DNA from: an uncultured Acetobacteraceae bacterium
Lineage (GTDB): Bacteria; Pseudomonadota; Alphaproteobacteria; Acetobacterales; Acetobacteraceae
Reading direction: 5' to 3'
Assembly: GCA_937873205.1 (NCBI GenBank)
Contig: CALMVO010000077.1
Location: forward strand, 37,112-101,111
DNA length: 64,000 nucleotides
The notes below the pieces were generated by a model, which made no database searches, was not told the DNA's origin, and was given only the letters and a program-made list of their open reading frames with translations. Each line of letters opens with the position of its first letter. Within the stretch, counting starts at the first letter, position 1. Below are positions 17,265-62,139 of the stretch, piece after piece. Position numbers and translations under genes: made by a program.

Positions 17265-17440
17265 AGGAGCCTGTCTGGGAATAGGGTGTGCCGAGCGAGA
17301 GTGCTCGGCTGCGGGCGCGGCGGAGCACGCCCGCCGTGCCCTTCGAGAACCGGCGCGGAACGGTCTCCTGGCCGTGAGCGACGGCAAGCGGAGACGGGTG
17401 CGCCGGATCGCCGGCACGGCGCATTCGCGGGCAGGCTCCT
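17265..17440. repeat. Structured intergenic repeat family A, copy 1
   Basis: Ends AGGAGCCTG / CAGGCTCCT inverted; shares GGGTGTGCCGAGCG, TTCGAGAACCGG, GGCCGTGAGC, GGATCGCCGGCAC with 38473-38610. Confidence 0.7.
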
Positions 17441-18392
17441 AGGACGCCACCACGCGGGCGCGCCGACGCCGGGTCAGCAGCCGCCAGGACAGCGCGAGCC
17501 CGGCGCGCTGCTGCTCGAGCCAGGAGCCGCTGGCCAGCGCCTCGGGCGCGCGGCCGTCGCCGGTCTCGACCACGTCGTGGCGGAAATCGGCGGTGCGGAA
17601 CAGCATGTCCCACCATGGAAACACGCCGCCATAGTTGCGGCTGTTGCGGCCGGCCGCGTCCAGCCCGTGATGGGCGCGGTGGAACTGCGGCGAGATCAGC
17701 AGCCGCTCGCCGAGCCAGCCGAAGCGGATCCGGGTGTTGGCGTGGCTGAAGCTCTCGACCAGCCGGATGGTCAGCACCAGCAGCGGGAACTGCATCGGCG
17801 GCACCCCGATCAGCAGCCCGGCGGCGATGAACCACACGTAGGTGATGACGTCGTCCAGCACGTGGTTGCGGTCGTCGGACCAGAACGTCATCTGCCGCTG
17901 CGCATGGTGCAGCGCGTGCAGCCCATACCACCAGCCGACCGTGTGGCTGAGGCGGTGGCGCCAATACTCGGCGAAGTCCAGCAGCACGACGTAGATCAGG
18001 AAGGTCAGCGCCGGCACGCCCAGCAGGAACGGGAACAGCGTCTCCAGCGTCGGCGGGATGTAGCCGTGGTCGGTGAGCCAGCCGTTCAGCGCGGTCTGCA
18101 GCCAGTAGAAGCCGAAGAACGTCGCCAGCGGGAACACGCCGATGCGGGCCAGCAGCGTGTAGGCCACGTCCATCGCCACCGCGTCGCGGCGCTCCCAGCG
18201 CACCAAGGGCCAGAACCGCTCGGCCGGCACGCAGATCGCGGCGTTCACCACCACCTGCAGCACGCCGTAGGTCGCGAACAGCGCCCACATGAAGGAGGTG
18301 TCCTCCCACTGCATCAGCCCGGACCGGAACAGCAGCGGCAGCAGGATCGTCTCGTGGACCCAGCCGGCGGCCCAGGCGAACGGGTCGATCAC
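17439..18392 (-). CDS. Sterol desaturase / fatty acid hydroxylase superfamily protein
   Basis: DFAEYWRHRLSHTVGWWYGLHALHHAQRQMTFWSDDRNH, QFHRAHH histidine boxes. Confidence 0.9.
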   Translation of the reverse strand: MIDPFAWAAGWVHETILLPLLFRSGLMQWEDTSFMWALFATYGVLQVVVNAAICVPAERFWPLVRWERRDAVAMDVAYTLLARIGVFPLATFFGFYWLQTALNGWLTDHGYIPPTLETLFPFLLGVPALTFLIYVVLLDFAEYWRHRLSHTVGWWYGLHALHHAQRQMTFWSDDRNHVLDDVITYVWFIAAGLLIGVPPMQFPLLVLTIRLVESFSHANTRIRFGWLGERLLISPQFHRAHHGLDAAGRNSRNYGGVFPWWDMLFRTADFRHDVVETGDGRAPEALASGSWLEQQRAGLALSWRLLTRRRRARVVAS

Positions 18393-18587
18393 CTAAGGCT
18401 CCCCGCCGGTGACGGGGCCGGGCGCGCGGGGCGGCGTCTGGAGCGGCATCATCCGCCGATCCTACCATGCCGGCGGGCCGCGGCCAGCGGTCATGATGCG
18501 GCGCTTGCACGGCGTCGGCAGGTCGGGCCTAGTCGTGGTCGCGCGTCCGGCCATGCCGTCCCGGCCGCAGTGCGGGAGACCCGTTGG

Positions 18588-18950
18588 ATGGCCGCACGCC
18601 GGCTGCTGATCGTCGAGGACGAGTTCCTCATCCGCATGACCCTGGCCGAGGTGCTGACCGACGACGGCTACGAGGTGGTCGAGGCCGGCGACGCCGACGA
18701 GGCGCTGGCGGCGCTGGCCGGGAGCGGCGCGATCGACGTGATGCTGACCGACATCCAGCTGCCGGGCCCGCTCGACGGCAAGGCGCTGGCCGCCCGCGCC
18801 CGCAAGACCAGGCCGGCGCTCCCGGTGATCTTCATGAGCGGCCGGCCCGACCCGGACGCTGGCGGCAACCCGCTCGACGTGCACATCAACAAGCCCTATC
18901 TGCCCTCGACGATCTCGTCGGCCGTGCGTCGGCTCATCGGCGAGGGCTGA
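18588..18950 (+). CDS. Single-domain CheY-like response regulator
   Basis: RLLIVEDEFLIRMTLAEVLTDDGYEVVEAGDADEAL, MLTDIQLPGPLDG. Confidence 0.92.
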   Translation: MAARRLLIVEDEFLIRMTLAEVLTDDGYEVVEAGDADEALAALAGSGAIDVMLTDIQLPGPLDGKALAARARKTRPALPVIFMSGRPDPDAGGNPLDVHINKPYLPSTISSAVRRLIGEG

Positions 18951-20548
18951 TGCGGCTGGAGGCGCTGAAGTCCGGCTTCGCGCTGCTGCAGGAGGGCCGC
19001 TTCGACGAGGCGCGGGACGCGCTGGCGCCCTGGGCGACCCTCGAGGACCTGGAGGCCCGGCTCCTCTACGGCCTGGCGCTCGGCGGCAGCGGCGAGCCCG
19101 CGGCGGCGGCTGGCCACCTCACCGCGGTGGCGCGGGCACGGCCGGCCAACACGCATCCCTGCCTCGACCTGCTGGGGCTGCTGCACCGGCGCTATCGCGG
19201 ACGCGACGCGGAGGCGGTGGTCCTCGCCTGCCTCACCCTCACGCCGGACGACTGGAGGCTGCAGCTGAGCCACGGCCAGCTGCTCTACGAGCTGGGCCGA
19301 CCCACGGAGTCGATGGCGGCGGTGGAGCGCAGCCTGGCGCTGTCCCCGGGCCAGACGTCGGCGTTGAACCAGCGGGCGATCGTGCTGATCGCGTTGGGCC
19401 GAACCGCCGACGGGCTGGCGCTGTTCCGCGACGTGGTCGCCCGCGACCCGCGCAATGCGCCGGCCTGGGCCAACCTGGGCTGCACGCTGGCCAACGAGGG
19501 CGTGTTCGAGGAGGCGCTGTCGGCCTACCGGCAGAGCATCCAGCTTAAACCCGCCGAGGCGCAGGTGCGGCTCAACCACTCGATCTGCCTGCTGAAGGCC
19601 GGCCGCATGGTGCAGGGCTGGCAGGAGCACGAGTGGCGCTTCAGTCTGCCCGGCCATACCGAGCTGCCGCTCGACCGCCTGCTGCCGACGCTGCGCCGCG
19701 AGACCAGCCTCGCCGGCCGCAGCGTGCTGGTGACGCACGAGGAGGGTCTTGGCGACACGTTGATGTACCTGCGCTTCGTGCCGCTGCTGGCCCGCCTCGG
19801 CGCCCGCGTGCTGGTCTGGGCGCCGCCGGCGGTCGCCCGGCTGGCGGCGCGGGTCGAGGGCGTGGCCGGCGTCGTCGCCACCGACGACATCCGGCTCGAG
19901 GCCGACTGGCACTGCCCGATGATCAGCCTGCCGCGCGTGTTCTCCGGCACGCCGCAGGCGCTGGGCCTGCCGCCGCCCTACCTCAACACCGATCCGGACC
20001 GGGTCGCCGCGCTCGCCGGCCGGCTGCCGCCGGCGCGGGACCGACGGCTCCGCGTCGGGCTGGCCTGGGGCGGGGCACCTCGGCCGGAGAACCTCGCCGC
20101 TAACATGGTGGACCGCAAGCGCAGCATCGGGCTGGCGGCCCTGGCCCCCCTCGCCCGGCTGCGCCACGTCGAGCTGGTGAGCCTGCAGGTCGGGCCCTAC
20201 GCGGACGAGCTGCGGGCGCCGCCGCCCGGGCTGTCGATCACCGATCCAATGCAGGACGTCGCCGACATGGACGACACCGCGAGCCTGATGCGCCACCTCG
20301 ACGTGGTGGTCAGCGTCGACACCTCGGTCGTGCACCTGGCCGGCGGCCTCGGCCTGCCGACCATCCTGCTGGACCGCTACGACAATTGCTGGCGCTGGTT
20401 CCACGACCGCACCGACAGCCCCTGGTACCCGTCGCTCACCATCGTCCGGCAGACCAGCCAGGGCGACTGGGCCGGCGTCGTCGACCGGCTGCTGCCGATG
20501 CTGCAGACGATGGCGGACGCCCGGCGGCGAGGCCGGCGGGCGGCCTAG
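18950..20548 (+). CDS. TPR protein with C-terminal glycosyltransferase-9-like domain
   Basis: N-terminal TPR units (ALNQRAIVLIALGRTADGLALFRDVVARDPRNAPAWANLG); C-terminal HEEGLGDTLMYLRFVPLLARLGARV and VVVSVDTSVVHLAGGLGLPTILL. Confidence 0.85.
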   Translation: MRLEALKSGFALLQEGRFDEARDALAPWATLEDLEARLLYGLALGGSGEPAAAAGHLTAVARARPANTHPCLDLLGLLHRRYRGRDAEAVVLACLTLTPDDWRLQLSHGQLLYELGRPTESMAAVERSLALSPGQTSALNQRAIVLIALGRTADGLALFRDVVARDPRNAPAWANLGCTLANEGVFEEALSAYRQSIQLKPAEAQVRLNHSICLLKAGRMVQGWQEHEWRFSLPGHTELPLDRLLPTLRRETSLAGRSVLVTHEEGLGDTLMYLRFVPLLARLGARVLVWAPPAVARLAARVEGVAGVVATDDIRLEADWHCPMISLPRVFSGTPQALGLPPPYLNTDPDRVAALAGRLPPARDRRLRVGLAWGGAPRPENLAANMVDRKRSIGLAALAPLARLRHVELVSLQVGPYADELRAPPPGLSITDPMQDVADMDDTASLMRHLDVVVSVDTSVVHLAGGLGLPTILLDRYDNCWRWFHDRTDSPWYPSLTIVRQTSQGDWAGVVDRLLPMLQTMADARRRGRRAA

Positions 20549-20895
20549 GGTCAAACCGATCAGCCAGACCGCCGGGTATGGTGGGAAGCGGACATAGCCT
20601 GCCAGGCTGTCGCCGGCTGCTGTGCGCTCCGTATCGGACGTTCAGAGACCTCGCTCTCTTGTCTGACAGCGGACATGGCCGCTGACGCAGCAAACGACCG
20701 GTCTGATCGTGCGTGGATTTTCGTGCACGTCATTTACCTTGACGTCGAATGCCTGCGAGCCCATTCACCGCCTCGGACTCGTGAAAGTCACAGCCCGGTC
20801 GGTAGTCCGGGTAGCTCACTGCTCGTACATGGCGGCTGCCGTCAGCAGCCGGCTACCAGCGTGTCCTTTCCGCTCAACAGGAAAGGTGCGTCCTC

Positions 20896-21318
20896 ATGGA
20901 AATCGCAAAATACATCGTCGCTTTCGTCGCTATCTATGGCTTTGGCGGGCTCATCGCCGACGGGATTGTGCCGTTTACGGCGCGGCAACATCTCTACAAT
21001 CCGGCATGGCCACCACATGCGAAGTTTCACAATGGGCAGACAATGCTGATGGGGATCGTGAACGGCACGATCGCCCTTGCGGTGCTCTTCGCTTTCCGCC
21101 CGCTGACGCTTCCCTTGTTCTTGGTTGCGACGGCCGCCGCGTCTGTCTACTGGGTGACGATGGTGCTGGCTCCTTTGTTCCCCGGCACGGCGTGGTTTGA
21201 TCCAGAGTTTGCTGACTCGTCTGGTCGTCCGCTCGGATTGAGCCCGCAGCAGCTCCTTTCTTATCTTCTCTGCGGCCTTCTTATCGTCGCAGTCGTTCTG
21301 GCACTCTCGCTGGGATAA
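20896..21318 (+). CDS. Small membrane protein, possibly DUF6640-like
   Basis: Four hydrophobic helices; TARQHLYNPAWPPHAKFHNGQTMLMG. Confidence 0.65.
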   Translation: MEIAKYIVAFVAIYGFGGLIADGIVPFTARQHLYNPAWPPHAKFHNGQTMLMGIVNGTIALAVLFAFRPLTLPLFLVATAAASVYWVTMVLAPLFPGTAWFDPEFADSSGRPLGLSPQQLLSYLLCGLLIVAVVLALSLG

Positions 21319-21541
21319 AAGGGGTGCGGGAGTCGGTAGGCTCCCGCACGGCCTTCGTACGTCGTCTTGAGTTCGATCAGGACCGAGATTGACCGTTGAG
21401 GTAATACTGGATTGTGTCCGCTTTTCGAGGGTTCTCGCTCGAAACCGGACCATCCGCTTCCGGCCGGTCCGGGAAAGGCCGGGCCATTCTGGAGACCGGA
21501 ACAGGTGCCAACGGCGCTCGTCAAACACCTGGCTGTCGCCG

Positions 21542-22303
21542 TCAGATGTGTATGCCGCCGGCGATCTCGATACGCTGGGCGTTCACCCAGCGGAACTCGT
21601 CCGACAGCAAGGCCGCGATGACGGGCCCGACGTCGTCCGGGTGACCGATGCGGCCGAGCGCCGTATGCGAGGCGAGTGTCCTGGCCACGTCGGGGTTGTC
21701 GCGCACGATACCGCCGCTGAAGTCGGTGGCGATGGCTCCGGGTGCCACGACATTCACCGCAATCCGCCGCGGCCCAAGTTCGAGCGCCATGTAGCGCGTC
21801 AGCGCTTCCACGGCGGCCTTCATCGGCCCGTAGACCGAGCGGCCGGGAAAGGTGAAGCGGGCGAGACCCGACGAGACGTTTACGATCCGGCCCCCATCCT
21901 CCAGCAGCGGCAGAAGCTTCTGGCTGAGCAGGAAAGGTCCCTTGAAGTGAACCGCGAACTGCTCGTCGAGCTGGGCTTCCGTGCCCTCAACGAACGTCGC
22001 GGCGGACGAGGTGCCGGCGTTGTTGACGAGGTAGTCGAAACGCTCTGCACCGAGCCCGCTCAAGGCCTCGCGAACGCTCGCGACAAAGGCATCGAACGAT
22101 TCCGCCCTTCCCACATCGAGCTGCAGCGGCACGGCAGGCGCACCCGCTTCGGAGGCCAAGGCTACCACTTTGTCGGCTTCGGTCCGATTGGAGTTGTAGC
22201 TGAAGATCGAGCGAACGCCGCGCGCCGCAAGGCGCAGCACACTGTCGCGCCCGATACCCCGGCTGCCGCCGGTGATGATGGCGATGGGAGACTGCTTGAG
22301 CAT
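21542..22303 (-). CDS. SDR family oxidoreductase
   Basis: AIITGGSRGIGRDSVLRLA, NNAGTSSAATF, YGPMKAAVEALTRYMALELG. Confidence 0.95.
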   Translation of the reverse strand: MLKQSPIAIITGGSRGIGRDSVLRLAARGVRSIFSYNSNRTEADKVVALASEAGAPAVPLQLDVGRAESFDAFVASVREALSGLGAERFDYLVNNAGTSSAATFVEGTEAQLDEQFAVHFKGPFLLSQKLLPLLEDGGRIVNVSSGLARFTFPGRSVYGPMKAAVEALTRYMALELGPRRIAVNVVAPGAIATDFSGGIVRDNPDVARTLASHTALGRIGHPDDVGPVIAALLSDEFRWVNAQRIEIAGGIHI

Positions 22304-22407
22304 GAGGCACCATCCGTTCGTTGAAGGCCCTCATCTATCGCGCCGCGTCGGCAGTTTTTAGCCCGCCCTATCCGACAGCACTATTCTCCTCTACGGAACA
22401 ATCCAGC

Positions 22408-23304
22408 ATGGATCGTTTCCGAAGCCTCGAACTGTTCGTCCGGATCGTCGACCGGGGCAGCTTCACCGCGGCTGCTTCCGATCTCGGCATCTCGCGCCCC
22501 GTCGCGACGACCGCAATCAGGATGCTGGAGGAACGGCTCGGCGCGCGGCTGCTCCAGCGCTCGACGCGCCAACTTCGGCCGACCGCCGAGGGTGAGGACT
22601 ACTACCGTCGTTGCGTGGCGGTTCTCGCCGACCTCGAGGACGCCGACCGGGTCGCGAGCGGGGCGGTCACTGGAACGCTGCGGGTCGACGTCGCGGGCAA
22701 CCTCGCCCGCACCCTCCTGCTGCCGGCGCTGCCCGGCTTCCTGGCACGGCATCCTGGCCTGATCGTCTACCTTGGCGAAGGCGAACGTTTCGTCGATCTG
22801 ATTCGCGAGGGCTTCGACTGTGTGGTGCGAGCGGGCCCGCTTGACGACAGCGAGATGGCGGCCCGGCGGCTTGGGGTCATGGAAGAGGTGACCTGCGCGA
22901 GTCCTGCTTATCTCGCCCGCCACGGAACACCGGTTTCGCCCGACGCGCTGGACGGACACGTCACCGTCGGCTTCGTGTCCTCGCGCACCCGGGCGCCCTT
23001 GCCGCTGGAGTTCAGCATAAACGGCCGGCTGGTCGAGGTGACGCTGCCGGCGCGGATGCTGGTCAATACGTCGGACATGAGCGCTGCCGCGGCCCTGCTC
23101 GGGCTCGGGCTGGTACAGGCGCCGCGCTATCGCTTCGAGGAAGATCTCGCGTCGGGCGCCCTGGTGGAAGTGCTGACCGGTTTCCGGCCCCCACCGACGC
23201 CTGTTTCCGTCCTCACCCCGAGCAACCGCCAGCTGGCCCCACGCGTCCGGCTGTTCATCGCCTGGCTGGTCGACACGCTTGGGCCTGCGCTTGCCGACGA
23301 GTAG
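22408..23304 (+). CDS. LysR-family transcriptional regulator
   Basis: N-terminal HTH RSLELFVRIVDRGSFTAAASDLGISRPVATTAIRMLEERLGARLLQRSTR; divergent from the SDR gene. Confidence 0.95.
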   Translation: MDRFRSLELFVRIVDRGSFTAAASDLGISRPVATTAIRMLEERLGARLLQRSTRQLRPTAEGEDYYRRCVAVLADLEDADRVASGAVTGTLRVDVAGNLARTLLLPALPGFLARHPGLIVYLGEGERFVDLIREGFDCVVRAGPLDDSEMAARRLGVMEEVTCASPAYLARHGTPVSPDALDGHVTVGFVSSRTRAPLPLEFSINGRLVEVTLPARMLVNTSDMSAAAALLGLGLVQAPRYRFEEDLASGALVEVLTGFRPPPTPVSVLTPSNRQLAPRVRLFIAWLVDTLGPALADE

Positions 23305-23602
23305 CAGACGCCAGGGAACGTCGCAGTGAAGCTCACGTCTACTCCAGGCCCGGGCGTGCCCACACAGCCGTGCCGGCCGGCGCCAGCGCGTCCACTTTGT
23401 GTCCCGGCGGTGGGAGAGCAGCCGAGACAATGTCGCCCAAAAGTACTGCTAAAGCGGCGCCTTCGTCGCCTGGCTTTATGTTCGCTTCTCGCAAATGCTG
23501 CTCCGCAGCCGACGGTCCGGTTTCGGCCAGACTTGGCCACGTCTGATGATGCCCCGGGGTCCGCTTTGGATCGGATGCGGCTGGTCACCGCCGCCGTGGC
23601 GT

Positions 23603-24156
23603 TTAGATGTCCACCTGCTCGGAGGTGGCCAGCGCGTCATCCACCTCGATGCCGAGGTAGCGGACCGTGCTTTCCAGCTTAGTGTGGCCGAGCAGGAGCT
23701 GGACCGCCCGTAGATTGCCGGTGCGCCGGTAGATCAGGGCCACCTTGGTTCGCCGGAGCGAGTGGTGCCGTAGAGCGCCGGATCCAGACCGATCGAGGTG
23801 ACCCAGCCATCCATCAGCCGGGCGTAGTGCCGGGTCGTCAGGGACTTGTTCTTCCCGATCCGGCTCGGGAACAGGCAGTCGCCGGGTCGGCGACCGCCCT
23901 TGGCAATCCACTGCATGACCGTCTCGCGTGTCTGCTCCGTAATTTCGAACTGAACTGGCCGGCCGGTCTTTTTCTGGATGACGGTTGTCCGGGGCCGGAC
24001 GCGGCCGCTCAGCAGCACGTCATCCACCCGCAAGGCCACCAAGTCGCAGCCCCGCAGCTTCAGCGGCGGTTTCTGGCCGATCAGCTTGCCGAGGTTCCAG
24101 GGCCTGAAGGGTTCATTGCTGCTCGTCCCTGGGATGGGCGCTACAAGGGATGTCAT
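23603..24156 (-). pseudogene. Tyrosine recombinase/integrase, frameshifted
   Basis: TVIQKKTGRPVQFEITEQTRETVMQWI... continues in another frame as LRRTKVALIYRRTGNLRAVQLLLGHTKLESTVRYLGIEVDDAL. Confidence 0.85.
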
Positions 24157-24293
24157 GTGTGTCGCTCCTGGCTTGACCCACGGCACCCGGTGCGGGTCGC
24201 GGGCACTGCCAAGGGCAGGACGGGAGCCGGTGCGGCCGGGAGAAGCACGGCATTCCCTTCTGCCGGGTGCTATGCTTGCCCAGGAGGTTTCGC

Positions 24294-24572
24294 ATGAGCG
24301 TAATCCAGCTACCCGACGAGCTTCAGCGTGTGATCGAGCGGCAGGTGGCCGAAGGCAGGGCTGCCAACCCGGCGGCGTTCCTCGAAGAGGCGGTCCGGCG
24401 GCTGGTTGACGAGACGCTGAGCGAGGAGAACGAGCTCCTCCAGGCGGCGGAGGCCGGCTCAGCCGATATCGCGGCCGGCCGCTACGTGATGGTGACGGCC
24501 GCCGAGGACGAGAAGCGCGTCCACGACGGCATGATGGCACGGTTGCGGGCTCGGCTTTCCGCCGGCAACTGA
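24294..24572 (+). CDS. Ribbon-helix-helix antitoxin, ParD-like
   Basis: MSVIQLPDELQRVIERQVAEGRAANPAAFLEEAVRRLVDE; AGGAGG ribosome-binding site just upstream; followed by ParE-like frame. Confidence 0.8.
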   Translation: MSVIQLPDELQRVIERQVAEGRAANPAAFLEEAVRRLVDETLSEENELLQAAEAGSADIAAGRYVMVTAAEDEKRVHDGMMARLRARLSAGN

Positions 24573-24940
24573 TTGGCCTACCGGCTTACCGGGGCGGCGG
24601 AAGACCAGATCGACGCTGTCCTGCTCGATAGCGCCCGTAGCTACGGCCTCGAAGCTGCTGGACGGTATGGCCAGCTGATTCTGACGGCCATGGCCGCGCT
24701 TGGTGCGGAGCCGCGTATGGTCGGGTCGGTTGAGGTCCCTCGCTTGGCAGGTGTTCTCGCCTATCCGATCCGACACCTGCGTCGACGGGTGGAACCGGCA
24801 CGCCGGGTCGGCAACCCTCGTCACCTCATCGTCTATCGGCTCGGGCCGGATAAATCGTGGAGATCCTGGGGCTGGTTCACGATCGTATGGTGCTGTTCCG
24901 AGCCGCCCGGAAGATCATCGAGGCGACTGACACGGGCTGA
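24573..24940 (+). pseudogene. ParE/RelE-family toxin, frameshifted near the C-terminus
   Basis: YRLTGAAEDQIDAVLLDSARSYG...NPRHLIVYRLGPDK then frame change to IVEILGLVHDRMVLFRAARKIIEATDTG. Confidence 0.8.
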
Positions 24941-25108
24941 GCGTGGTGGGAAGCGGACCTTTATCAGTTCAGCAGTGCCCAATATGTGTCCCATGCATGC
25001 AGCGATAATTGTTGACCCGGACCGGCGCCGACCCACCATCCGCGCCTCTGGCGAAGTATTTGGACACCGGCCTTGCAGAACTACCGTGAACAGGCAACGG
25101 TGCTAACC

Positions 25109-25800
25109 ATGAACGATGGGCAGGTCCGAATCGGCTTGATCGGGGTCTCGCCCTTCGGGCAGGCCTTTTTTACTACGAACGGTTGCTGGAGCAGCACGTA
25201 GCGGAAGGGCGCTGTTTGAACTTGTTCTTGGCCCATGCCGACGTCGCCACCGTGCTGGCACACGTCGCGGCTGGCGACAGGTCTGCGCTGGGCAGCTACC
25301 TCGGCACACTCGCAAACGATCTGTTCGACGCAGGCGCTGGCTTGGTGGCGATTAGCGCCGTGGCGCCACATTTGGCAGCCGTCGAGATTGCCTCGGCAGC
25401 CCGGGGGCCGGTAATCAGCGTCCTGGATGTCATCCCGATGGCCCTCAAGGCCGGCAACATCGGCAAGGTGGCCGTTTTCGGTAATCGAGCCGTTATGGAA
25501 ACGGACGTGTTCGGTAGTATTTCGCCGTCTCTGATTGTTCGTCACGACGCTGCTCAGCTGGACGCGATCCACGCGGCCTACACCGACGTGGCTGTCAACG
25601 GGAAGCGCGGCACCGCGACCGAAGCCGCGTTTTTCGCCGATGCTGCCCGCCGGGCGATGCAGGAAGGAGGAGCCGAGGCGATCCTACTTGCAGGAACGGA
25701 TTTGTCCTCCTTCTATGCCGACGCGCCGCCGCCCTTCCCCGCCATCGACGTCGCGACGCTGCACGTGCGAGAAATCGTCCGATGCGCATGGGCAGCTTGA
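25109..25800 (+). pseudogene. Aspartate/glutamate racemase family protein, frameshifted at a T6 run
   Basis: MNDGQVRIGLIG... in one frame, YYERLLEQHVAEGRCLNLFLAHADV...ILLAGTDLSSF in the next; break at 25166-25171. Confidence 0.75.
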
Positions 25801-25839
25801 CCAGCAGGCGGGGGTAAGCGTGCTCATCTGGCCGAATGG

Positions 25840-25947
25840 CTAGAGCGTGATCCGATCGCATAGGCTCACGGATCACCCTCTAGCTTATTGTTTTAACGAG
25901 CATCTTTATCCGATCAAACGATTCCGTTCGATCGGATGATGCTCTAG
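25840..25947. repeat. 108-bp two-hairpin dispersed element, copy 1
   Basis: CTAGAGC...GCTCTAG ends; internal hairpins GTGATCCG/CGGATCAC and ATCCGATC/GATCGGAT; about 90% identical to 48079-48186. Confidence 0.9.
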
Positions 25948-26265
25948 GGCAGGCTGAACCGACCAACTGATATTGCCGATCTAAATCCGCATCGAGGGGT
26001 ACTGCGCGTTATTTTGTAGGTCCGCTTGGGGTCGGAAACGGCGGTAGGAGGGCGAGTAGCCAACTACCGCTGTAAGTGGTGGTTTGCGGGAACATCGCGA
26101 CGTCGAAAGCCGAGCGGCTTGGTGGTGACTTCCCGGTCAGCTCGATGACACGATGTGGACAGTCTCTCGCACGCCCCACCTCGTATGATGTCTGGCTTAG
26201 GGTCGCCTGTCGCAATAGCTTCCCCGGCTGGGACCTAGCCGCCGGGAAGGGTGGATAGCTGCCCT

Positions 26266-26868: not shown

Positions 26869-26926
26869 ACCACTGCTTGTAGTCCTAGCATTGCTACGCT
26901 ATGTGCCGGCAGGGAAGGAGCTGCCC

Positions 26927-27307: not shown

Positions 27308-27308
27308 G

Positions 27309-27629: not shown

Positions 27630-27664
27630 ACCCTATCAGAGGCGAATTCTTGAGCAGGGCGTGC

Positions 27665-27735
27665 GTCCGCTTTGGGTCGGGTGCCGCGGTAACCCGCCCG
27701 GCTGCGCCGAGCGCCGGGCTTGGTGGAAAGCGGAC
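27665..27735. repeat. Small element with GTCCGCTTT/AAAGCGGAC inverted ends
   Basis: 9-bp perfect terminal inverted repeat; half-sites recur at about 20583, 21419, 23556, 24950, 28329 and 33243. Confidence 0.55.
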
Positions 27736-27745
27736 TCCGGTCGGT

Positions 27746-28777: not shown

Positions 28778-31141
28778 TTGACGTTCTTGATTTGGTCCAT
28801 CGGCCGGTTCATGCCGGTCATCGGTGCCCTGGCCATGTTCGCGACGAGTTCCCCGGTCGGTGCCGCCCCCGCACCTGGCCCCGCCTCCAACTTCGCAGAC
28901 GTCGATCCCATGATCGGCACCGGGCCGGATGGCCACACCTATCCCGGCGCCACGGTGCCGTTCGGCATGGTCCAGCTCAGCCCGGACACCTGGATCGGCG
29001 ACTTCCGCCACTCCTACAGCCACGCCGCCGGCTACCGCTACGAGGACCCGACGATCCAGGGCTTCTCCCACACCCACTTCTCCGGCGCGGGACATTCCGA
29101 CCTCGGCGACGTGCTGGTGATGCCGATCGCCGGCGCGGTGCAGCTCGATCCGGGCGATCCGGACCACCCCGGCTCCGGCTACCGCTCGCGGTTCAGCCAC
29201 GACACCGAGCACGCGGAGCCCGGCTACTACGCCGTCACCCTGTCCGACTCACGCGTGCGTGCCGAGCTGACGGCGACGCCGCGCGTCGGCCTACACCGCT
29301 ACCGCTTCCCCGCCGACAAGCCCGCGCACCTGCTGATCGACCTGCGGCAGAGCATCTACAACTATCCGGGCAAGGTGCTGTGGTCGCGGATGACGCTGCA
29401 CCCCGACGGCACCATCACCGGGTTCCGCGAGACCCGCGGCTGGGCGCCCGCCCGCCAGCTGTACTTCGCCATGCGCTTCTCCCGCACGCCCACCGGCCAC
29501 GCCCTCATCGACCGCGAGGCCGAGCCGGTGCCGTATCACGGCTTCAAGGGCCCCGGGGACGACCCCGCCGACACCGACGCCATCGTCGGGCGCGGCCTGA
29601 TCGGCGTGGTCGATTTCGGCAAGCTCGATGCCCCGCTCGTGGTGGAGGTGGCGCTGTCCTCCGTCAGCGAGGACGGCGCGCTGGCCAACCTGCGGGCGGA
29701 GGCGCCCGACTTCGACTTCGACCGCATCCACGCCACCGCCAGCACAGCCTGGCAGCAGGCGCTGTCCTCGGTGGAGTTCACCGCCCCCACGCCGATGCGC
29801 CGCACGCTGGCAACGGCACTCTACCACGCGCTGCTGGCGCCCAGCCTGTCGATGGACACCGACGGACGCTACCGCGGCCCGGACGATGCGGTGCACCAGG
29901 CGCGCGACTTCGACTTCGTGTCCACCTTCTCGCTGTGGGACACCTACCGCGCCGAGCAGCCGCTGATGACGCTGATCCAGCCGGCCCGCCGCACGGTGGA
30001 CGTGGTGGACTCGCTGCTCGCCTCGCGGGACGAGAGCCCGTTCGGGATCCTGCCGATCTGGCAATTCCAGGGCCAGGAGACCTGGTGCATGATCGGCTAC
30101 CACGCGGTGCCGGAGATCGCCGACGCGGTGCTGAAGGGCATCCCCGGCATCGACCGGAACCGGGCGCTGGCCGCGATGGTCGCCAGCGCCACCTACGCGC
30201 CCTACGGCCACCTCGGCGACTACATGCGGCAGGGCTTCGTCCCGGTGGATCACGACGACGAGGCGGTGTCCAAGACGATGGAATACGCCTTCGACGACTG
30301 GACGATCGCGCGCACCGCCCGCGCGACCGGCCACGCCGCGATCGCCGACGCCTTCGACCGCCGCGCCCGGAACTGGCGCAACGTGTTCGACCCCGGCATC
30401 GGCTTCGTGCGGCCGAAGCTTGCCGACGGCCGGTTCCGCGACGGTTTCGATCCCGCCCGGGCCGGCGCCGGCAGCGGCTTCACCGAGGGCGATTCGTGGC
30501 AGTACTCCTGGTACCAGCCGCAGGACGTGGGCGGCCTGATCGGGCTGCTGGGCGGCGACGACCGTCTGGTCGCCAAGCTCGACGGGATGTTCGACGCGAC
30601 GATCGCGCCGCACCAGTACGACGCGGTGGAGGACATGTCTGGCCTGATCGGCCAGTACGTGCACGGCAACGAGCCGAGCCACCACCTGGCCTATCTCTAC
30701 GCCTATGCCGGCCAGCCCTGGCGCGGCCAGGCGCGGCTGCGGCAGATCGTCGACAGCCAGTACCACCCGACGCCGGACGGGCTGGTCGGCAACGATGACC
30801 TCGGCCAGATGTCGGCCTGGATGATCTTCACGGCATTCGGCTTCTATCCCGTGGCGCCCGGCTCGAACCAGTACGTCATCGGCCGCCCGTTCGTGGACCG
30901 CGCGGTCCTGAACCTGCCGAACGGCAGGCGGTTCACCATCAGCACCGAGGGGTTGTCCGACGCGCATCCCTATGTCGGCGAGGTGTTCCTCGACGGCGCG
31001 CCGCTGTCCCGCAGTTTCCTGCGTCACGACGAGATCATGCGCGGCGGCACGCTGCGCTTCGTCATGCAGGCCGCGCCGAACAAGGCCTGGGCGACGGCCG
31101 GGCAGGACCGCCCGTTCTCGACCACGCCCTATGGCGGCTGA
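28778..31141 (+). CDS. Secreted GH92 family alpha-mannosidase (start uncertain)
   Basis: DVDPMIGTGPDGHTYPGATVPFGMVQLSPD, GFSHTHFSGAGHSDLGDVLVMP, FDFVSTFSLWDTYRAEQPL, GNEPSHHLAYLYAYAGQPW, GNDDLGQMSAWMIFTAFGFYPVAPG. Confidence 0.93.
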   Translation: MTFLIWSIGRFMPVIGALAMFATSSPVGAAPAPGPASNFADVDPMIGTGPDGHTYPGATVPFGMVQLSPDTWIGDFRHSYSHAAGYRYEDPTIQGFSHTHFSGAGHSDLGDVLVMPIAGAVQLDPGDPDHPGSGYRSRFSHDTEHAEPGYYAVTLSDSRVRAELTATPRVGLHRYRFPADKPAHLLIDLRQSIYNYPGKVLWSRMTLHPDGTITGFRETRGWAPARQLYFAMRFSRTPTGHALIDREAEPVPYHGFKGPGDDPADTDAIVGRGLIGVVDFGKLDAPLVVEVALSSVSEDGALANLRAEAPDFDFDRIHATASTAWQQALSSVEFTAPTPMRRTLATALYHALLAPSLSMDTDGRYRGPDDAVHQARDFDFVSTFSLWDTYRAEQPLMTLIQPARRTVDVVDSLLASRDESPFGILPIWQFQGQETWCMIGYHAVPEIADAVLKGIPGIDRNRALAAMVASATYAPYGHLGDYMRQGFVPVDHDDEAVSKTMEYAFDDWTIARTARATGHAAIADAFDRRARNWRNVFDPGIGFVRPKLADGRFRDGFDPARAGAGSGFTEGDSWQYSWYQPQDVGGLIGLLGGDDRLVAKLDGMFDATIAPHQYDAVEDMSGLIGQYVHGNEPSHHLAYLYAYAGQPWRGQARLRQIVDSQYHPTPDGLVGNDDLGQMSAWMIFTAFGFYPVAPGSNQYVIGRPFVDRAVLNLPNGRRFTISTEGLSDAHPYVGEVFLDGAPLSRSFLRHDEIMRGGTLRFVMQAAPNKAWATAGQDRPFSTTPYGG

Positions 31142-31165
31142 TCCGGCGCGGACAGGCGACGCGAC

Positions 31166-32296
31166 ATGATGACCCGACGAGCGGCCCTGCTAGGATCGTT
31201 AGCCATGAGCACCAGCCCGATACCTCAGGCAGCCGCCGCGCCCGCCGTCGCACAGCCCGTCGCGGCCGGTCCGGTCCGCCACGACTTCATCATCCGCGAC
31301 TTCGTCACCGAAAGTGGGACGGTGCTGCCCGAGGCGCGCCTCGTCTACGGCACGCGCGGGTCGCTCAACGCCGCCCGCGACAACGCCGTGCTGCTGCCGT
31401 CGCACTACATGGCCGACATGCACGGCTACGACTGGCTGATCGGCCCCGGCCGGGCGCTCGATCCCGACAGACTGTTCCTCATCACCAGCGAGATGTTCGG
31501 CAACGGCCGCTCGTCGTCGCCGAGCAACACGCCCGAACCCCTGCACGGCCCCCGGTTCCCGGTCACCACGATCCGCGACAACGTGGCCGCCGTGCACCGC
31601 CTGCTGACCGAGGGGCTCGGCATTTCGCACCTGCGCGCCGTCATCGGCTTCTCGATGGGCGCGCAGCAGGCGCTGCAATGGGCGGTCAGCCACCCCGCCT
31701 TCATGGACCGCATCGTCGCCACCTGCGGCACCGCCCGGACCTATGGCCATGGCATCGTCCGCCTCGACGGCCAGATCGCGGCGCTGACCGCCGACCCGGC
31801 GTTCGACGACGGCAACTACACCGCCCAGCCCGCCCGCGGCATCCGGGCCACCGCCCTGGTCTGGCTGGGCTGGCTCTACTCCCAGGAGTGGTGGCGCGAG
31901 GAGCTATGGCGCGTGGACAACCCGCCCGGCACCACCTTCCGGCAGGCCGTCGACCAGGCCACCGACCAGTTCTTCGACGGCGACGACGCCAACGACCTGA
32001 TCCTTCACATGAGGTCCTGGCAGCGACACGACGTCGGCCAGACGCCGCCCTTCGCCGGCAACCTGGAGGCGGCACTTGGCTCGATCGAGGCCCCGGTCCT
32101 CTCCATGCCGTCCACGACCGACCTGTACTTCCCCGCGGACGAGGCCCGCGACGAGTCCCGCCACATCCGCCGCTGCACCTTCACGCCGATCCCGTCCCTT
32201 TGGGGCCATCCCGCCGGCGCCGGCGCCAGCCCCGCCGACGCCAGGTTCCTCAACGACCACGTCGCCGCCTTCATGGCCGGTCGCCCCGCCCCATAG
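31166..32296 (+). CDS. Exported alpha/beta hydrolase of the homoserine acetyltransferase (MetX-like) family
   Basis: Signal peptide; DFVTESGTVLPEARLVYGTRGSLNAARDNAVLLPSHY, VIGFSMGAQQALQWAVSHPAFM. Confidence 0.85.
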   Translation: MMTRRAALLGSLAMSTSPIPQAAAAPAVAQPVAAGPVRHDFIIRDFVTESGTVLPEARLVYGTRGSLNAARDNAVLLPSHYMADMHGYDWLIGPGRALDPDRLFLITSEMFGNGRSSSPSNTPEPLHGPRFPVTTIRDNVAAVHRLLTEGLGISHLRAVIGFSMGAQQALQWAVSHPAFMDRIVATCGTARTYGHGIVRLDGQIAALTADPAFDDGNYTAQPARGIRATALVWLGWLYSQEWWREELWRVDNPPGTTFRQAVDQATDQFFDGDDANDLILHMRSWQRHDVGQTPPFAGNLEAALGSIEAPVLSMPSTTDLYFPADEARDESRHIRRCTFTPIPSLWGHPAGAGASPADARFLNDHVAAFMAGRPAP

Positions 32297-32354
32297 TGGC
32301 CCGAACGGGACGCGGACCGCTTCGCGAGCGCGACGGGGCCGCCGCCTGCGTCCC

Positions 32355-33209
32355 CTATCCGGTCTGACAAACCGCGCACCAGTACAGCATCCGCCCCGCC
32401 ATCGGCTCCGCCAGCACCGGCGTCCCGCACACCCGGCACGGCCGCCTCGCCCGGTGCGCCACGTAGCAGGCATCGTGCCCACGCGCCTTGCCCGAGGAAC
32501 GCTCCCGGTCCGCGGGCTCGGTCGTCACGATCCGTCCCGTCTCGACCCCGTCCTGCAGCAGCGCCGCGAGATCCGTCCAGAGCGCGTCCCACGTGGCCGC
32601 CGAGATCTCCCGTCCGGGCCGGTGCGGATCGACCCGCGCCCTGAACAGGATCTCCGCGCGATAGATGTTGCCGATACCGGCCACGATATCCTGCCGCATC
32701 AGCAGCAGCCCGATCGCCGACCGCGACGCCTGGACCTTGGCGAACGCCCGCCCCGGATCGGCGTCGTCCCGCAAGGGATCTTCGCCCAGCCGCCGCATCG
32801 CGACCGCCTTTTCCGCACGCGAGAGCACCATGCACGCGGTCGGGCCGCTCAGGTCGGCCGCGTTGCCCCGGGTCAGCAGCCGCAGCCGCACCAGACCCCG
32901 AGGCTCCGGCGGAAACACGCCTGGCTCATCCGCGGCGACCCGCGCCGCGCGACGCCCGAAACCCGCCAGCCCCGGCCCGGCGAACCGCCACATCCCATAC
33001 AGCCCCAGATGAACCCGCAGCCAAAGCTCTTCGGAGAACATCAGGAACATCTGCTTGCCGTGGGCTTCGGTCGCCTGCAGGACCCGACCGTCCAGCAGCG
33101 CCGCCCCCTCGGCGAACCGTCCCTGCGGACTGCTCGCCTCGACCGTCTTGCCGACGAACCGTGCCCTGAACGCGCCTGCGAGCCGGTGCACCGTATGTCC
33201 TTCAGGCAT
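32355..33209 (-). CDS. nei: Fpg/Nei family DNA glycosylase
   Basis: MPEGHTVHRLAGAFRARFVGK; zinc finger CRVCGTPVLAEPMAGRMLYWCAVCQ. Confidence 0.92.
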   Translation of the reverse strand: MPEGHTVHRLAGAFRARFVGKTVEASSPQGRFAEGAALLDGRVLQATEAHGKQMFLMFSEELWLRVHLGLYGMWRFAGPGLAGFGRRAARVAADEPGVFPPEPRGLVRLRLLTRGNAADLSGPTACMVLSRAEKAVAMRRLGEDPLRDDADPGRAFAKVQASRSAIGLLLMRQDIVAGIGNIYRAEILFRARVDPHRPGREISAATWDALWTDLAALLQDGVETGRIVTTEPADRERSSGKARGHDACYVAHRARRPCRVCGTPVLAEPMAGRMLYWCAVCQTG

Positions 33210-33355
33210 CCGCTTCCCTTCGCCGGAGCATGAACGTCCAGAAGCGGACGCTCAGGCCGCCATGGCCCGCTCGACGGCAGCCTTGGCGTGGAGCGCCGTC
33301 GTCATGATCTCCGTTCATCCGAGGATCACGAGAGCCTTCGTCCAATCGGGGGTCT

Positions 33356-33420
33356 GGGACCGTCACGCGACAGCGTGCTGCGCACGACGGCTCCAGCGGG
33401 TCCAGGGCAGGGCCCTGGCC
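33356..33420. repeat. Two-hairpin REP-like element, copy 3 (after methyltransferase stop)
   Basis: Reverse complement GGCCAGGGCCCTGCCCTGGACCCGCTGGAGCCGTCGTGCGCAGCACGCTGTCGCGTGACGGTCCC closely matches 14289-14353. Confidence 0.85.
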
Positions 33421-34056
33421 CTACCCTCCTTCGGCCGTGCGCCCGATGACGGCCCAGATCGGATCGCCGCGGCGCGGCACCGAGGCGCGCTGCTCGGTCG
33501 CGGCGAAGCCGGCGTCCCGCATCGCCAGCGCCATCAGGCGCTGCTGGCCGGCGCCATCGAGCGCCCGCCAGATCGCCACCGCCTTGGTCGGGAAGCAGCG
33601 GTTGGAGAAGGTGACCACCAGCGGTGCTCCCGGCCGCAGCACGCGGGCCAGCTCGGCGAACACCTCCACCGGCCGCTGCAGATACTGCACCGAGACGCAG
33701 ATGCAGGCGGCGTCGAAGGACCGGTCCGGCAGCGGCAGGATCGGGTCGGCGTTCAGGTCCTGCACCAGCCGGCGGTCGAGCCGCGGGTTGGCGGCGAGCT
33801 CGGCCGCGTTCATCCCCAGCCCGGTGACGCCAGCGTAGGCGACCTCCGCGGGCAGGTGGCTGACCCAGCTGCTCATCAGGTCGAGGATGGCCCCACCTGC
33901 CGGCAGCAGCCCGCGATACAGCTCGGTGACGGTGGCGACGGCGGCGTCGTCGATATGGGTGACCAGGCGCGGCTCGGCGTAGAACAGCGGGTCGGGCGAC
34001 GGGTCGGCCTTGGCGAAGGCGCTGGGGGGCAGGTCTGCGAGGGCGGGCTCGGTCAT
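33421..34056 (-). CDS. Class I SAM-dependent methyltransferase
   Basis: ILDLMSSWVSHLP, PLPDRSFDAACICVSVQYLQRPVEVFAELARVLRPGAPLVVTFSNR. Confidence 0.88.
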   Translation of the reverse strand: MTEPALADLPPSAFAKADPSPDPLFYAEPRLVTHIDDAAVATVTELYRGLLPAGGAILDLMSSWVSHLPAEVAYAGVTGLGMNAAELAANPRLDRRLVQDLNADPILPLPDRSFDAACICVSVQYLQRPVEVFAELARVLRPGAPLVVTFSNRCFPTKAVAIWRALDGAGQQRLMALAMRDAGFAATEQRASVPRRGDPIWAVIGRTAEGG

Positions 34057-34304
34057 GCGGGCGGGATACCATGCGGATCGCGGTGCCGCATCCGGGCCGG
34101 CTCGCGATCCCTCACGCGCCGCCGGCCTGCTCGACAACGTGATCTCCCGTCGACGCCGAGGGAACGCCTCCATCACCCGGGCCCGGACGCCGCGGTCGGC
34201 ACCGGCCTGGCGGCAGCGGCTCGAAGACGGCATCGCGTCCGGCGACCAGCCGCCCTCGACCCAGGGGCCACGGTCGCGGGCGAGGCAGCGCGTGGCGGCG
34301 GCGA

Positions 34305-37300
34305 TCAATACTGGAACTGGTATTTGAGCGCCACCGAGCTGCCCGGGTCGTTCTCCGGCGTGATGATGCCGGTGGTGGCGCCGCCGGTGCCGACCGTGGT
34401 CACCAGCTTGAGCCGGCGGGTGAGGTCGATCTGCACCTCCGCCTGGCTGCCGCCGCCGCTGGTCGCCTGCTTGGCGCCGACATAGACGCCGCGGGTGACA
34501 TACTTGCCGGCCTCGATGCTCGCACTGCTGCTGTCGGTGCCGGACCCGCTGCCGATCGAGAGCCGGTCCAGCCCCAGCGACTTGCGCACCGTGCCGAGCG
34601 GATCGAAGCCGCCGCCGCCGGAGCCGGTGAGCGACGCGAGGGCGGCCGCCACCTGCGCGATCTGCAGCGCACTCAGCGACTTGGTGTCCTGCCCGAACAG
34701 GATCAGCGCCAGCACCTGATCCTGCGGAAGCGGCGGCGTCGAGGACAGCGTGATCTTCGGCGCACTGGCGTAGCCGCCGACGTTCAGCATCGCCACCGTC
34801 GAGTTCACGACGCTCTGCGCGGTGAAATCGAGCGTGGGGTCGATCTTGTGGCCGACGCCGGTGCCGTTGAAGCCGACCCGGCCCTTGGTGAAGGTGAGCG
34901 AGATGCCGGCCAGGTCGAAGGTGCCGCGCCGCATGTCGAAGGCGCCGCTCACCAAGGGTGCCGCGGAGGTGCCGCCGACATGCAGCATCCCGCCCAGCTC
35001 GGCGTCGAGCCCGTGGCCGCGCACGAAGATCTGGCCGGGCGCCTCAACCGCGAGGTCGAGCCCGATCAGCAGCCCGGGCGCCGCGGCCGAGGCCGGCGCC
35101 GGCGGCTTCTGCCCGGGACGGATCACGTCGAGCCGGGCCACCGAAGGCGGCAGCCCGTTCGGCACGTTGATCTGGGCGCCGTCGATGGTGAGCGTGCCGC
35201 CGACGTCGAGCCGAGTTGCCGCCTGGCCGCGGATGGCGATATCGGCGTCGAGCACCGCGGTCAGCAGGTCGCTCGACAGCGGCCGGGCCTGGTGCATGGT
35301 GAGGTGCAGGTCGACCGGCAGGCCGGGCGCCAATGCACCGACCGTGCCGCTGGCGCCGATGGTGCCGTCGCCGGCATGGGCGGTGAAGGTCTCGATGCTG
35401 AGCGTCTGCCCGCTGGCGCGGATCAGAGCCGAGATGTCGGTCAGCCGCAGCCCCTGGGCGTAGTCCAGCACCTTCGCGTCGGCGAGCTGCACGGTGCCGT
35501 CGAGCCGCGGCGCCTTCGCGGTGCCGGACACGCCCATGGCCAGCGTGAGGATACCGTCGGCCTCGCGGCCCTGCGCGCCCAGGACGGCATTGGCCAACGA
35601 CAGGTCGATGCGGCCATCGGCGCGGAGTGCCAGCGGCCCGGTGGCCGAGGTCGGCGCGGTGCCGGCGAGCGACAGCGCCACCTTCGGCCCGGCATCCAGA
35701 TGGACGTCCACGCGCGCCGTGCTGCCGGCCAGCGTCACGTCGGCGCGCAGGCTGCCGGCGGGCAGCGAGGCGGCCGGGCCGGTGCGCAGGCGCAGCCCAC
35801 TGCCGATCAGGTGCACGCTGCCGTGCGGCTGCGCGATCGTGCCGATGAGCTTCGCGTCCGCCGAGATCAGCCCGGTGGCATCCAGGGTCGGCGCGAACGG
35901 GTGGGCCAGCGCCGGGGTGATGCCGTCGATGCGGGCGGTGAGGTCGAGGCGTGGCTTCACCTCGCCGGCGACGTCGATGCCGGCCGGTGCGGCACCGGCT
36001 GTCGCCAGGGACAGGCGCAGCCGGTCCAACGCCGTGCGGGCCCCGAATGCGATCCGCGCCGGCGACAGCAGGCGCAGCGCCTCGCCCTTGGCATCGACGG
36101 CAAGACGGGAGATCGCCACCTCCTTCTTCGGCAGGTCGAGCCGCAGCGCGGCGTCGAGGCGGGCGGGGCCGCCCGCGACGCCCTCGAGCTGCGCCTGCGC
36201 GGCGACGTCGAGCGCCGTCTGCGGGCCGTGCGCGGTCGCATGCGCGGCTCCAGTGATGGCGCCGGCGCGGAGGCCGGTGGCGTCGAGGCGGAGCGCCACC
36301 GAGGGGCCGGCCAGCGGGTCGTCGACGGTGCCGGCGAGCAGCAGGCGGGACACGCGGGCGCTGGCGATGCCGCCATCCGCGCGCACGTCGATCGCCACAC
36401 GCGGGGCCGCGCCCGCCGTCTGGCTGGTCTGCACCCGTGCCAGCACGCTGCCGGAGATCGCCTGGCCGATCACCGGGCGCAGATCGGCCAGGCGCGCCAT
36501 GTGCAGGTCGAGGCTGCCCAGCGGCACCTTGGCGCCGGCCGGCAGCGTCATGTCGGCATGGCCGCTGGCGCTTCGCCAGGACAGCGTGTCCAGCACGAGG
36601 TGCAGCGCGCCGTCGGCCAGACGCGAGGCCTCCGCCTTCAGCGTGATGGGGGCGCGGTCGAGGGTGCCGGCGAGCGAGACGGCGCCGGCCGGGGCCGACG
36701 GCAGATGCTGCGCGTCCACCACCAGGTGCAGCGGGCCGGGCGCCATGGTGGCAGTGCCGGGATCGCCGTCGGCGGTGAGGTGGGCGGAGACATCGCGCAG
36801 CGGGCCGCTGGCAGTGCCGGCGATCGTCATGACGCCGCGCAGGCTGGGCAGCGCCTGCTGCAGCGACGGCAGGCCGAGCGAGACTTGTGCCGCGAGCACG
36901 CCCGCGGTGTCGGTGCCGGACGCGGCGAGGTGCAGCGCCTGGCCGTCGAGCTGGAGCTGGCGCAGCGCGAGCGCGGAGCCGTCGCGGCTGGCCTGCAGCG
37001 TGATCTGGCCGGTCGGCCCGATCAGCCCCACCGCCTGCGGCTGCCCGCCGGTGATGGCGATCGGGCCGGACAGGCTGATCTCGGCCTTCGGCCCGTCGAG
37101 CGAGAAGCGGGCGGCGAGGTCGGCGTGGCCCGCCAGCGCGGTGCCGCCGATGGCGGCGAGCGGCGCCAGGTCGGGCAGGTGCAGGGCCAGCTGCCCGCGC
37201 TGCGGCGCCGCGGTGAGCACGTGGCCACTCACCCCCAGCAGCGGATGCGACACGGTGAGGTCGAGCGGCCGGCCGGCGGCGTGCGGGTCGAGCGTGGCGT

Positions 37301-38471
37301 CCAGCGTGAGCGGGGCGGCGGCGAGCAGGGTCGGCTGCGGACCGGGCAGGCGCAGCCCGTCCAGCACCGCGTGCAGGTGCACCGGGCCCACGGTCTGCTG
37401 GCCGTCGAAGCCGGCGGTGAGCCGGCCGATGCCGACGCCGTCCGCGGCGAGCTCATCCAGCACCAGCGTGCCCTGCCCGGCCGGCGCCTGCGGCGTGCCG
37501 AGCAGGTGAGCATCGAGCGCCACCTTGGTCCATGCGATGCCCGGCATCGGCTGCATCGCCGGCGCGTGCACGGCCAGCGTGACGTCGAAGCGGGGCCGCA
37601 GCAGGTCGATTGTGCCGTGCGCGCCCAGCGTCAGCACGCCGGTGGCGGCGGCGCCGGCGGTGCCGGACAGCGCCAGCCGCTCGGCGTCGCGCGGGCCGGC
37701 GAGATCGAGCGAGAGATGCGACGGATCCAGGATCGGCAGGTGGCCGAGCGCCGCGACGAAGCCGTCCGCCGGATCGTCGAGCCGCAGATGCAGGGCCAGC
37801 GTCGACGGCGCCACCGTCGCCGCGAGGTCGAGGCGGCCGGGACGGTCGAGGCGGGCGAGCTGCAGGCCGAGGTCGCTGTTCGGCAGCCGGCCGATCGCCA
37901 CCCCGTCCAGCAGCGGCGCCAGGTCGGCGATGCGGACATGGCCGTCGATCGTCGCGGCGACCCCGGTGCCGGCGATGGGGGCGGCGACCGCGAGCCGGTC
38001 CACCCGCAGCCGGTCGATCAGGATGCCCAGATGCAGCCCGCTCCTGGTTCCCGGTCGTGTCGGCGCCGCCGGCTTGGCGTTCGGGGCCGGCACCGGCAGG
38101 CGCATGGCATCGATCAGCCCGGCGCTGGCCAGCTCAACATGCACGGTGTCGGTGAGCAGCCGCAGCGGCGACCAATCCAGCGCCAGCCGTTCGATCGCGA
38201 GCCAGGGGCCCTTGGTATCGTTCACGGTGATGCGGCGGACGGTGAGCGCGTCCGGGAAGCGGCCGCCCAGCCCCTCGATGCCGACCAGCCCGCCGGTGAG
38301 CGAGGTGGCCTGGCGCTCGATCAGGCGGCGCCCGGCGCCGGTGTTGGCGCCGACCAGGATCACCACCAGAAGCAGCACGATCAGCGCCAGAGGCAGGCCG
38401 ATCAGCAGCCCGGCGGCCCAGGCGGCGACGCGCAATGGACGGAAGCGGGAGGAGTGCGCGTGAGCGGCCAT
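34305..38471 (-). CDS. tamB: Translocation and assembly module protein TamB
   Basis: N-terminal TM anchor, very long repetitive beta-helix-like protein, C-terminal DUF490 region with VLALILFGQDTKSLSALQIAQ; downstream of tamA. Confidence 0.92.
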   Translation of the reverse strand: MAAHAHSSRFRPLRVAAWAAGLLIGLPLALIVLLLVVILVGANTGAGRRLIERQATSLTGGLVGIEGLGGRFPDALTVRRITVNDTKGPWLAIERLALDWSPLRLLTDTVHVELASAGLIDAMRLPVPAPNAKPAAPTRPGTRSGLHLGILIDRLRVDRLAVAAPIAGTGVAATIDGHVRIADLAPLLDGVAIGRLPNSDLGLQLARLDRPGRLDLAATVAPSTLALHLRLDDPADGFVAALGHLPILDPSHLSLDLAGPRDAERLALSGTAGAAATGVLTLGAHGTIDLLRPRFDVTLAVHAPAMQPMPGIAWTKVALDAHLLGTPQAPAGQGTLVLDELAADGVGIGRLTAGFDGQQTVGPVHLHAVLDGLRLPGPQPTLLAAAPLTLDATLDPHAAGRPLDLTVSHPLLGVSGHVLTAAPQRGQLALHLPDLAPLAAIGGTALAGHADLAARFSLDGPKAEISLSGPIAITGGQPQAVGLIGPTGQITLQASRDGSALALRQLQLDGQALHLAASGTDTAGVLAAQVSLGLPSLQQALPSLRGVMTIAGTASGPLRDVSAHLTADGDPGTATMAPGPLHLVVDAQHLPSAPAGAVSLAGTLDRAPITLKAEASRLADGALHLVLDTLSWRSASGHADMTLPAGAKVPLGSLDLHMARLADLRPVIGQAISGSVLARVQTSQTAGAAPRVAIDVRADGGIASARVSRLLLAGTVDDPLAGPSVALRLDATGLRAGAITGAAHATAHGPQTALDVAAQAQLEGVAGGPARLDAALRLDLPKKEVAISRLAVDAKGEALRLLSPARIAFGARTALDRLRLSLATAGAAPAGIDVAGEVKPRLDLTARIDGITPALAHPFAPTLDATGLISADAKLIGTIAQPHGSVHLIGSGLRLRTGPAASLPAGSLRADVTLAGSTARVDVHLDAGPKVALSLAGTAPTSATGPLALRADGRIDLSLANAVLGAQGREADGILTLAMGVSGTAKAPRLDGTVQLADAKVLDYAQGLRLTDISALIRASGQTLSIETFTAHAGDGTIGASGTVGALAPGLPVDLHLTMHQARPLSSDLLTAVLDADIAIRGQAATRLDVGGTLTIDGAQINVPNGLPPSVARLDVIRPGQKPPAPASAAAPGLLIGLDLAVEAPGQIFVRGHGLDAELGGMLHVGGTSAAPLVSGAFDMRRGTFDLAGISLTFTKGRVGFNGTGVGHKIDPTLDFTAQSVVNSTVAMLNVGGYASAPKITLSSTPPLPQDQVLALILFGQDTKSLSALQIAQVAAALASLTGSGGGGFDPLGTVRKSLGLDRLSIGSGSGTDSSSASIEAGKYVTRGVYVGAKQATSGGGSQAEVQIDLTRRLKLVTTVGTGGATTGIITPENDPGSSVALKYQFQY

Positions 38472-38472
38472 C

Positions 38473-38610
38473 AGGACCCGTTCGAGAATGGGGTGTGCCG
38501 AGCGGGCGTGTCGTTCGAGAACCGGAGCGGAGCGGCCTCCATGGCCGTGAGCACCGGCAAGCGCGACGGGCGCGGATCGCCGGCACAACGCATTCTCACG
38601 CGGGTTCTCA
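38473..38610. repeat. Structured intergenic repeat family A, copy 2
   Basis: ACCCGTTCGAGAATGGGGTGTGCC at one end is near-inverse of GGCACAACGCATTCTCACGCGGGTTCT at the other; homologous to 17265-17440. Confidence 0.7.
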
Positions 38611-62113: not shown

Positions 62114-62139
62114 GCGGTCGGTCCGCAGACAAGAGGAGG

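Follow-up and report, generated by a model that had tools for sequence, protein, structure and literature searches.

Short hairpin elements with effects on the upstream mRNA have been described in two bacterial systems. Passages of PMC2229807 report that ERIC elements are co-transcribed with upstream genes and, citing De Gregorio 2005, that in Yersinia they affect upstream mRNA stability in an orientation-dependent manner; a passage of PMC12306157, citing Liang 2015, reports that E. coli REPs lying within 15 nt of a stop codon stall ribosomes. The element family analyzed here resembles ERIC in being a short, non-autonomous hairpin and E. coli REPs in being a palindromic repeat near gene 3' ends, but it is homologous to neither. 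Its sequence is unrelated to ERIC, whose target type is TA. REPs are 20–40 nt long, carry a tagged tetranucleotide, and are linked to RAYT, whereas our element measures 105–180 nt, makes a 3-bp TNA duplication, has a stop codon at its border, and is found in copy-rich genomes in which RAYT is absent. To our knowledge, nucleotide-exact, sense-only placement on stop codons has not been reported for ERIC. IS1031-type elements of the IS5 family make 3-bp TNA duplications, and the MITEs of this group share with our element this duplication, inverted terminal arms, and the absence of a transposase gene; however, the arms of our element vary among copies and do not resemble the autonomous ends found (GAGCGCCTTTCAAAAC), and its center is conserved instead. 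Integron attC sites are similar in that a structured hairpin directly follows the stop codon in gene sense, its arms vary in sequence, and the strand opposite the gene folds better. An attC identity was rejected because our element occurs without cassette arrays, has target duplications, and inserts alone, with empty sites showing that it moves without a gene; moreover, its GTT/AAC boxes are not in the attC arrangement.

The window (the whole stretch analyzed, 64,000 nt of a contig from an uncultured Acetobacteraceae bacterium) carries two copies of the element (Table 1). The preliminary description had reported two copies with common blocks in the same order, placed in the same orientation at the stop codons of the minus-strand sterol desaturase and tamA genes, and the window sequence bears out each of these points. 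For copy 2 it gave 38473–38610, which is the right place, but the bounds by the covariance model are 38472–38610; in addition to the tamA stop at one edge, copy 2 has a second TGA on the far side, which overlaps the tamB start codon. Each copy folds far better than its dinucleotide-preserving shuffles, most strongly on the window's plus strand (z −6.5 for copy 1 and −6.2 for copy 2); the gene strand shows a weaker excess, with z −5.2 and −3.7, respectively. Other repeats were also observed in the window. One, with the motif GGCCAGGGCTCTGCCCTGGACCCG, is found at 14289–14359 and 33350–33420 as well as at 2869–2900, 14281–14312, and 62130–62161, and congeners have similar sequence behind their genes at orthologous sites. 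The other is a 108-nt direct repeat (25840–25947 and 48079–48186, 91% identical), which is separate from the stop-codon element family.

Table 1. Element copies, stop codons, and host genes in the window
Feature	Position	Strand	Basis or remark
Element copy 1	17265..17441	-	Covariance-model match G000:C77:54376-54552, 150 bits; gene-sense 5' end is the TAG stop of the upstream gene
TAG stop, sterol desaturase/fatty acid hydroxylase gene	17439..17441	-	At 5' end of copy 1; sequence and ORF 17439-18392
Host gene of copy 1, fatty acid hydroxylase/sterol desaturase family	17439..18392	-	PF04116, E 1.3e-29
Element copy 2, internally deleted form, between tamA and tamB	38472..38610	-	Covariance-model match G000:C77:75583-75721, 128 bits
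TGA stop of tamA, first copy of the 3-bp target duplication	38608..38610	-	Sequence; three congeners have the empty site TTC-TGA-TGG
TGA, second copy of the target duplication; its A opens the tamB ATG, as in empty sites	38471..38473	-	Sequence and empty sites
tamA, host gene of copy 2	38608..40776	-	Omp85 and POTRA domains
tamB, downstream of copy 2	34305..38471	-	PF04357, E 1.5e-54

The genome was searched using BLAST together with a covariance model trained on 18 of its own copies, a check that the preliminary description had proposed, and 22 loci matched, with many more in relatives. The model matched in 11 of 60 relative genomes, all 11 of them Acetobacteraceae, with 1 to 36 copies each; most of the other genomes, including one congener, gave no covariance-model match. 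Among 150 sampled members of the family, 27 were positive. A scan of named genomes found the element in Gluconacetobacter (many species, including G. diazotrophicus PA1 5), Endobacter medicaginis, Lichenicoccus, Rhodovastum, Acidisphaera, and an Elioraea MAG, and a few copies beyond the Acetobacteraceae in Sphingomonadales. Six Gluconacetobacter genomes had 30 to 137 matches each. Tandem or nested copies, some of them partial, were seen at three loci (L118, L120, and L190) in Endobacter and Gluconacetobacter. No plasmid relatives were found. Rfam gave nothing at the gathering threshold within the window and, in 12 loci, only chance-level matches.

The element forms one long branched hairpin (about 170 nt; element length about 105–180 nt) and contains no conserved gene. 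In 62 full-length copies, 46 of the 60 base pairs showed a two-sided change in one copy or more, and such changes numbered 587 cells, versus 199 in column shuffles and 92–135 with slid partners. The outer arms (about 20 bp) diverge almost freely in sequence among copies of one genome while their complementarity is kept; the most conserved part is the center, CGGTGCTCACGGCC-N-GGCCGCTCCGCTCCGGTGCTCG. Related genomes provided 47 pairs of same-site copies, in which 544 base pairs had changed; 277 of these were double changes from one Watson–Crick pair to another, many of them double transversions. The copies L257:2554-2720 and L363:604-770 occupy one insertion site with almost identical flanks in two Gluconacetobacter species; they differ by two-sided changes at 12 base pairs, and no change is uncompensated. 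This pattern can reflect either selection on pairing or a process in which one arm is copied from the other. C.A mismatches in the sense strand, which are G.U pairs in the antisense strand, outnumber sense G.U pairs (492 vs 237), indicating that the better-folded, more stable strand is the antisense one, opposite the gene. An inner small ORF starting at GAGAATG was considered and rejected, since its ATG lacks conservation and indels do not come in multiples of three.

Orthologues in congeners end on the same residue without the element, leaving precise empty sites at tamA, pstB, and other genes. For example, the end of tamA reads ...F-TGA-TGGCC in three congeners and ...F-TGA-[element]-TGA-TGGCC in this genome. 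Hence, the copies insert. The arms are well defined in 244 copies; left and right flanking triplets were identical in 41 of these at one register, versus 0–8 at 12 other registers tested, and the matching pairs included TGA/TGA (29), TTA/TTA (4), and TCA/TCA (4). The element inserts into TNA trinucleotides with a 3-bp duplication; at stop codons, as at tamA, the duplication copies the stop codon itself, and the host protein is unchanged. Both the duplication test and the empty sites are independent of gene calls. A joined-flank search (query 4,064 of 6,020 nt), which serves as supporting evidence only, found empty sites in close species for both stop and non-stop copies. The right-hand triplet is still TNA in 30 of 93 stop copies, compared to 23 of 62 per side in non-stop copies; given this similar decay, the stop copies do not look older. 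At three stop codons (L043 and L082 in pstB, L035 and L105, and L032 and L108), two genomes carry the element with different arms and other congeners are empty, which may be due to either common ancestry or repeated use of one site. The empty sites gave no sign of the arms being inverted copies of the host flank.

Like a MITE, the element occurs as dispersed copies, has precise empty sites, and makes a target duplication, here 3-bp TNA. Sequence-conserved terminal inverted repeats common to an autonomous element were not found: the inverted arms vary in sequence, and no autonomous form with these ends was detected. Autonomous IS5-family elements with 3-bp TTA/TAA duplications are present in two copy-carrying genomes; their duplication type fits, but they were rejected as parents, as their ends are unlike the element arms. 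An IS5-family (PF13340) transposase match at 46497–46727 (+) of the window has no clear terminal repeats around it and is therefore probably a remnant.

The placement of the element was measured in 271 distinct copies from about 20 genomes, a set that is skewed to high model scores and whose counts are not all independent because related Gluconacetobacter species partly share orthologous copies. With genes called by our own codon-usage script, the stop codon of the upstream same-strand gene lies within −5 to +17 nt of the element start in 196 copies and exactly at the first base in 108. TGA, TAG, or TAA stands at the first base in 46% of copies, versus about 1–3% at positions just upstream, under a model whose first positions were trained on own-genome copies trimmed at the stop column. 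Exact-stop copies lie in sense in 156 cases and in antisense in 7, whereas copies 2–40 nt from a stop are evenly oriented (19 sense vs 21 antisense; Fisher 4e-12 between the two classes), as are non-stop copies between co-directional genes (17:21). The rule holds separately within four genomes (G000, G001, G002, and G005). Thus, the resemblance of the two window copies is not due to chance: the genome has further copies, and most of the distinct copies start at a stop codon in sense. Random placement without stop bias, which would have spoken against the preliminary description, was not what we found. No rule that we know of for such elements predicts placement this precise.

We consider it about an even bet (probability roughly 0.5) that the family is a non-autonomous, MITE-like element that, where it lies in sense on a stop codon, is retained as a portable structured 3' UTR. 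It inserts into TNA with a 3-bp duplication, which leaves the host protein intact where the TNA is the stop codon; judging from the duplication type, it would be mobilized in trans by an IS5/IS1031-type transposase. Sense copies at stop codons would be favored because the element then serves as the structured 3' UTR of the upstream mRNA. There, like ERIC or stop-proximal REPs, it may influence translation termination, 3' processing, or mRNA decay, and arm pairing would be maintained while arm sequence drifts. The MITE with stop-codon-linked insertion proposed in the preliminary description is supported by the empty sites, the TNA duplication, the dispersed copies, and the orientation bias at stops; a role as a 3'-UTR processing element or 3'-UTR sRNA, which it also offered, is possible. 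Pairing is better in exact-stop copies (0.83 vs 0.75, p 0.001) and truncated copies are fewer there (15/156 vs 22/75, p 2e-4), both of which speak for selection. Several observations argue against this reading. Stop copies do not look older, contrary to the prediction of long retention; both stop and non-stop copies have empty sites in close species by the joined-flank search; the terminal arms are unconserved, which is odd for a transposase substrate, and the center is conserved instead; the better-folded strand is the antisense one; and some copies adjoin tRNA 3' ends, where there is no stop codon. A selenocysteine-type or readthrough signal was rejected because orthologues that lack the element terminate at the same residue and because additional in-frame stops often come next.

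The strongest rival, which we regard as possible though clearly less probable than the MITE-like 3' UTR, is directed insertion, in which whatever mobilizes the element has a preference for gene 3' ends, both stop codons and tRNA CCA ends, and for a fixed orientation, so that integration itself, and not selection, creates the bias. The bias is nucleotide-exact and gone 2 nt away, and insertions recent enough to be missing from every congener checked already conform to the rule; this and the similar duplication decay, by which stop copies are not older, speak for directed insertion. It is also favored by three ARAGORN-confirmed neighbors, tRNA-Tyr and tRNA-Ala genes, at whose exact 3' ends sense copies begin (L229:2692, L253:1245-1393, and L220:7255-7404), and by an excess of C before TGA stops among copies (C at −1 in 75% vs 56%). 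In Sphingomonadales and Rhodovastum, some copies start in sense at tRNA 3' CCA ends. However, no candidate enzyme was identified, and we know of no DNA transposase that recognizes stop codons as such. Among non-stop copies, TGA, TCA, TTA, and TAA all serve as targets in either orientation, and therefore the duplication triplet alone is not directional. In a more specific form of the proposal, integration would be directed to functional gene 3' ends by a mechanism that recognizes such ends and not DNA sequence only; the translation stop codon would be the 3-bp target, in a single orientation, and other taxa would use tRNA CCA ends. We consider this form marginally more doubtful still.

Pure tolerance, whereby the element enters any TNA site, most insertions are harmful or lethal, and stop codons are simply where they survive, seems unlikely to us. 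The TNA target is established, and stop triplets are tolerated with an unchanged C-terminus, but TNA-type stops make up only about 9% of TNA sites in the noncoding sequence of the window (38 vs 377), and copies per site are about fivefold more frequent at exact stops than at TNA sites 2–40 nt downstream, which should be equally harmless. Target choice plus tolerance therefore does not explain the rule, and tolerance alone leaves the 156:7 orientation unexplained. An intrinsic transcription terminator, or else an old and conserved cis-regulatory RNA that belongs to specific genes, would fit the strong hairpin and the covariation, yet we hold it to be very improbable: no stem with a U-tract was detected at either window copy, the upstream genes are mostly unrelated (only 4 orthologous pairs were common to the first genomes compared), and the precise empty sites disfavor it. 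The plain intrinsic terminator offered in the preliminary description is likewise not supported, as several copies also lie inside co-directional gene pairs, such as tamA–tamB. A sigma-70 promoter was sought in element copies and none was found. Least credible is a REP/BIME-like element moved by a RAYT (Y1/HUH) transposase, since, although the element is palindromic, intergenic, and often near stops, as passages of PMC12306157 describe for REPs, it has 3-bp target duplications and a length of 105–180 nt, and Y1_Tnp (PF01797) has no match in the copy-carrying genomes searched (G000-G005, G008, G010, G011, and G030).

Collectively, these results describe an abundant element family, present in well-studied bacteria (Gluconacetobacter diazotrophicus and Endobacter), of which we found no description in Rfam or in the papers searched on Acetobacteraceae or Gluconacetobacter repeats at stop codons. 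Its exact-stop sense rule, set beside control copies from the same genomes that show no bias, makes it testable whether selection or directed insertion to gene 3' ends is at work, and the family would affect 3' UTR annotation in these species.
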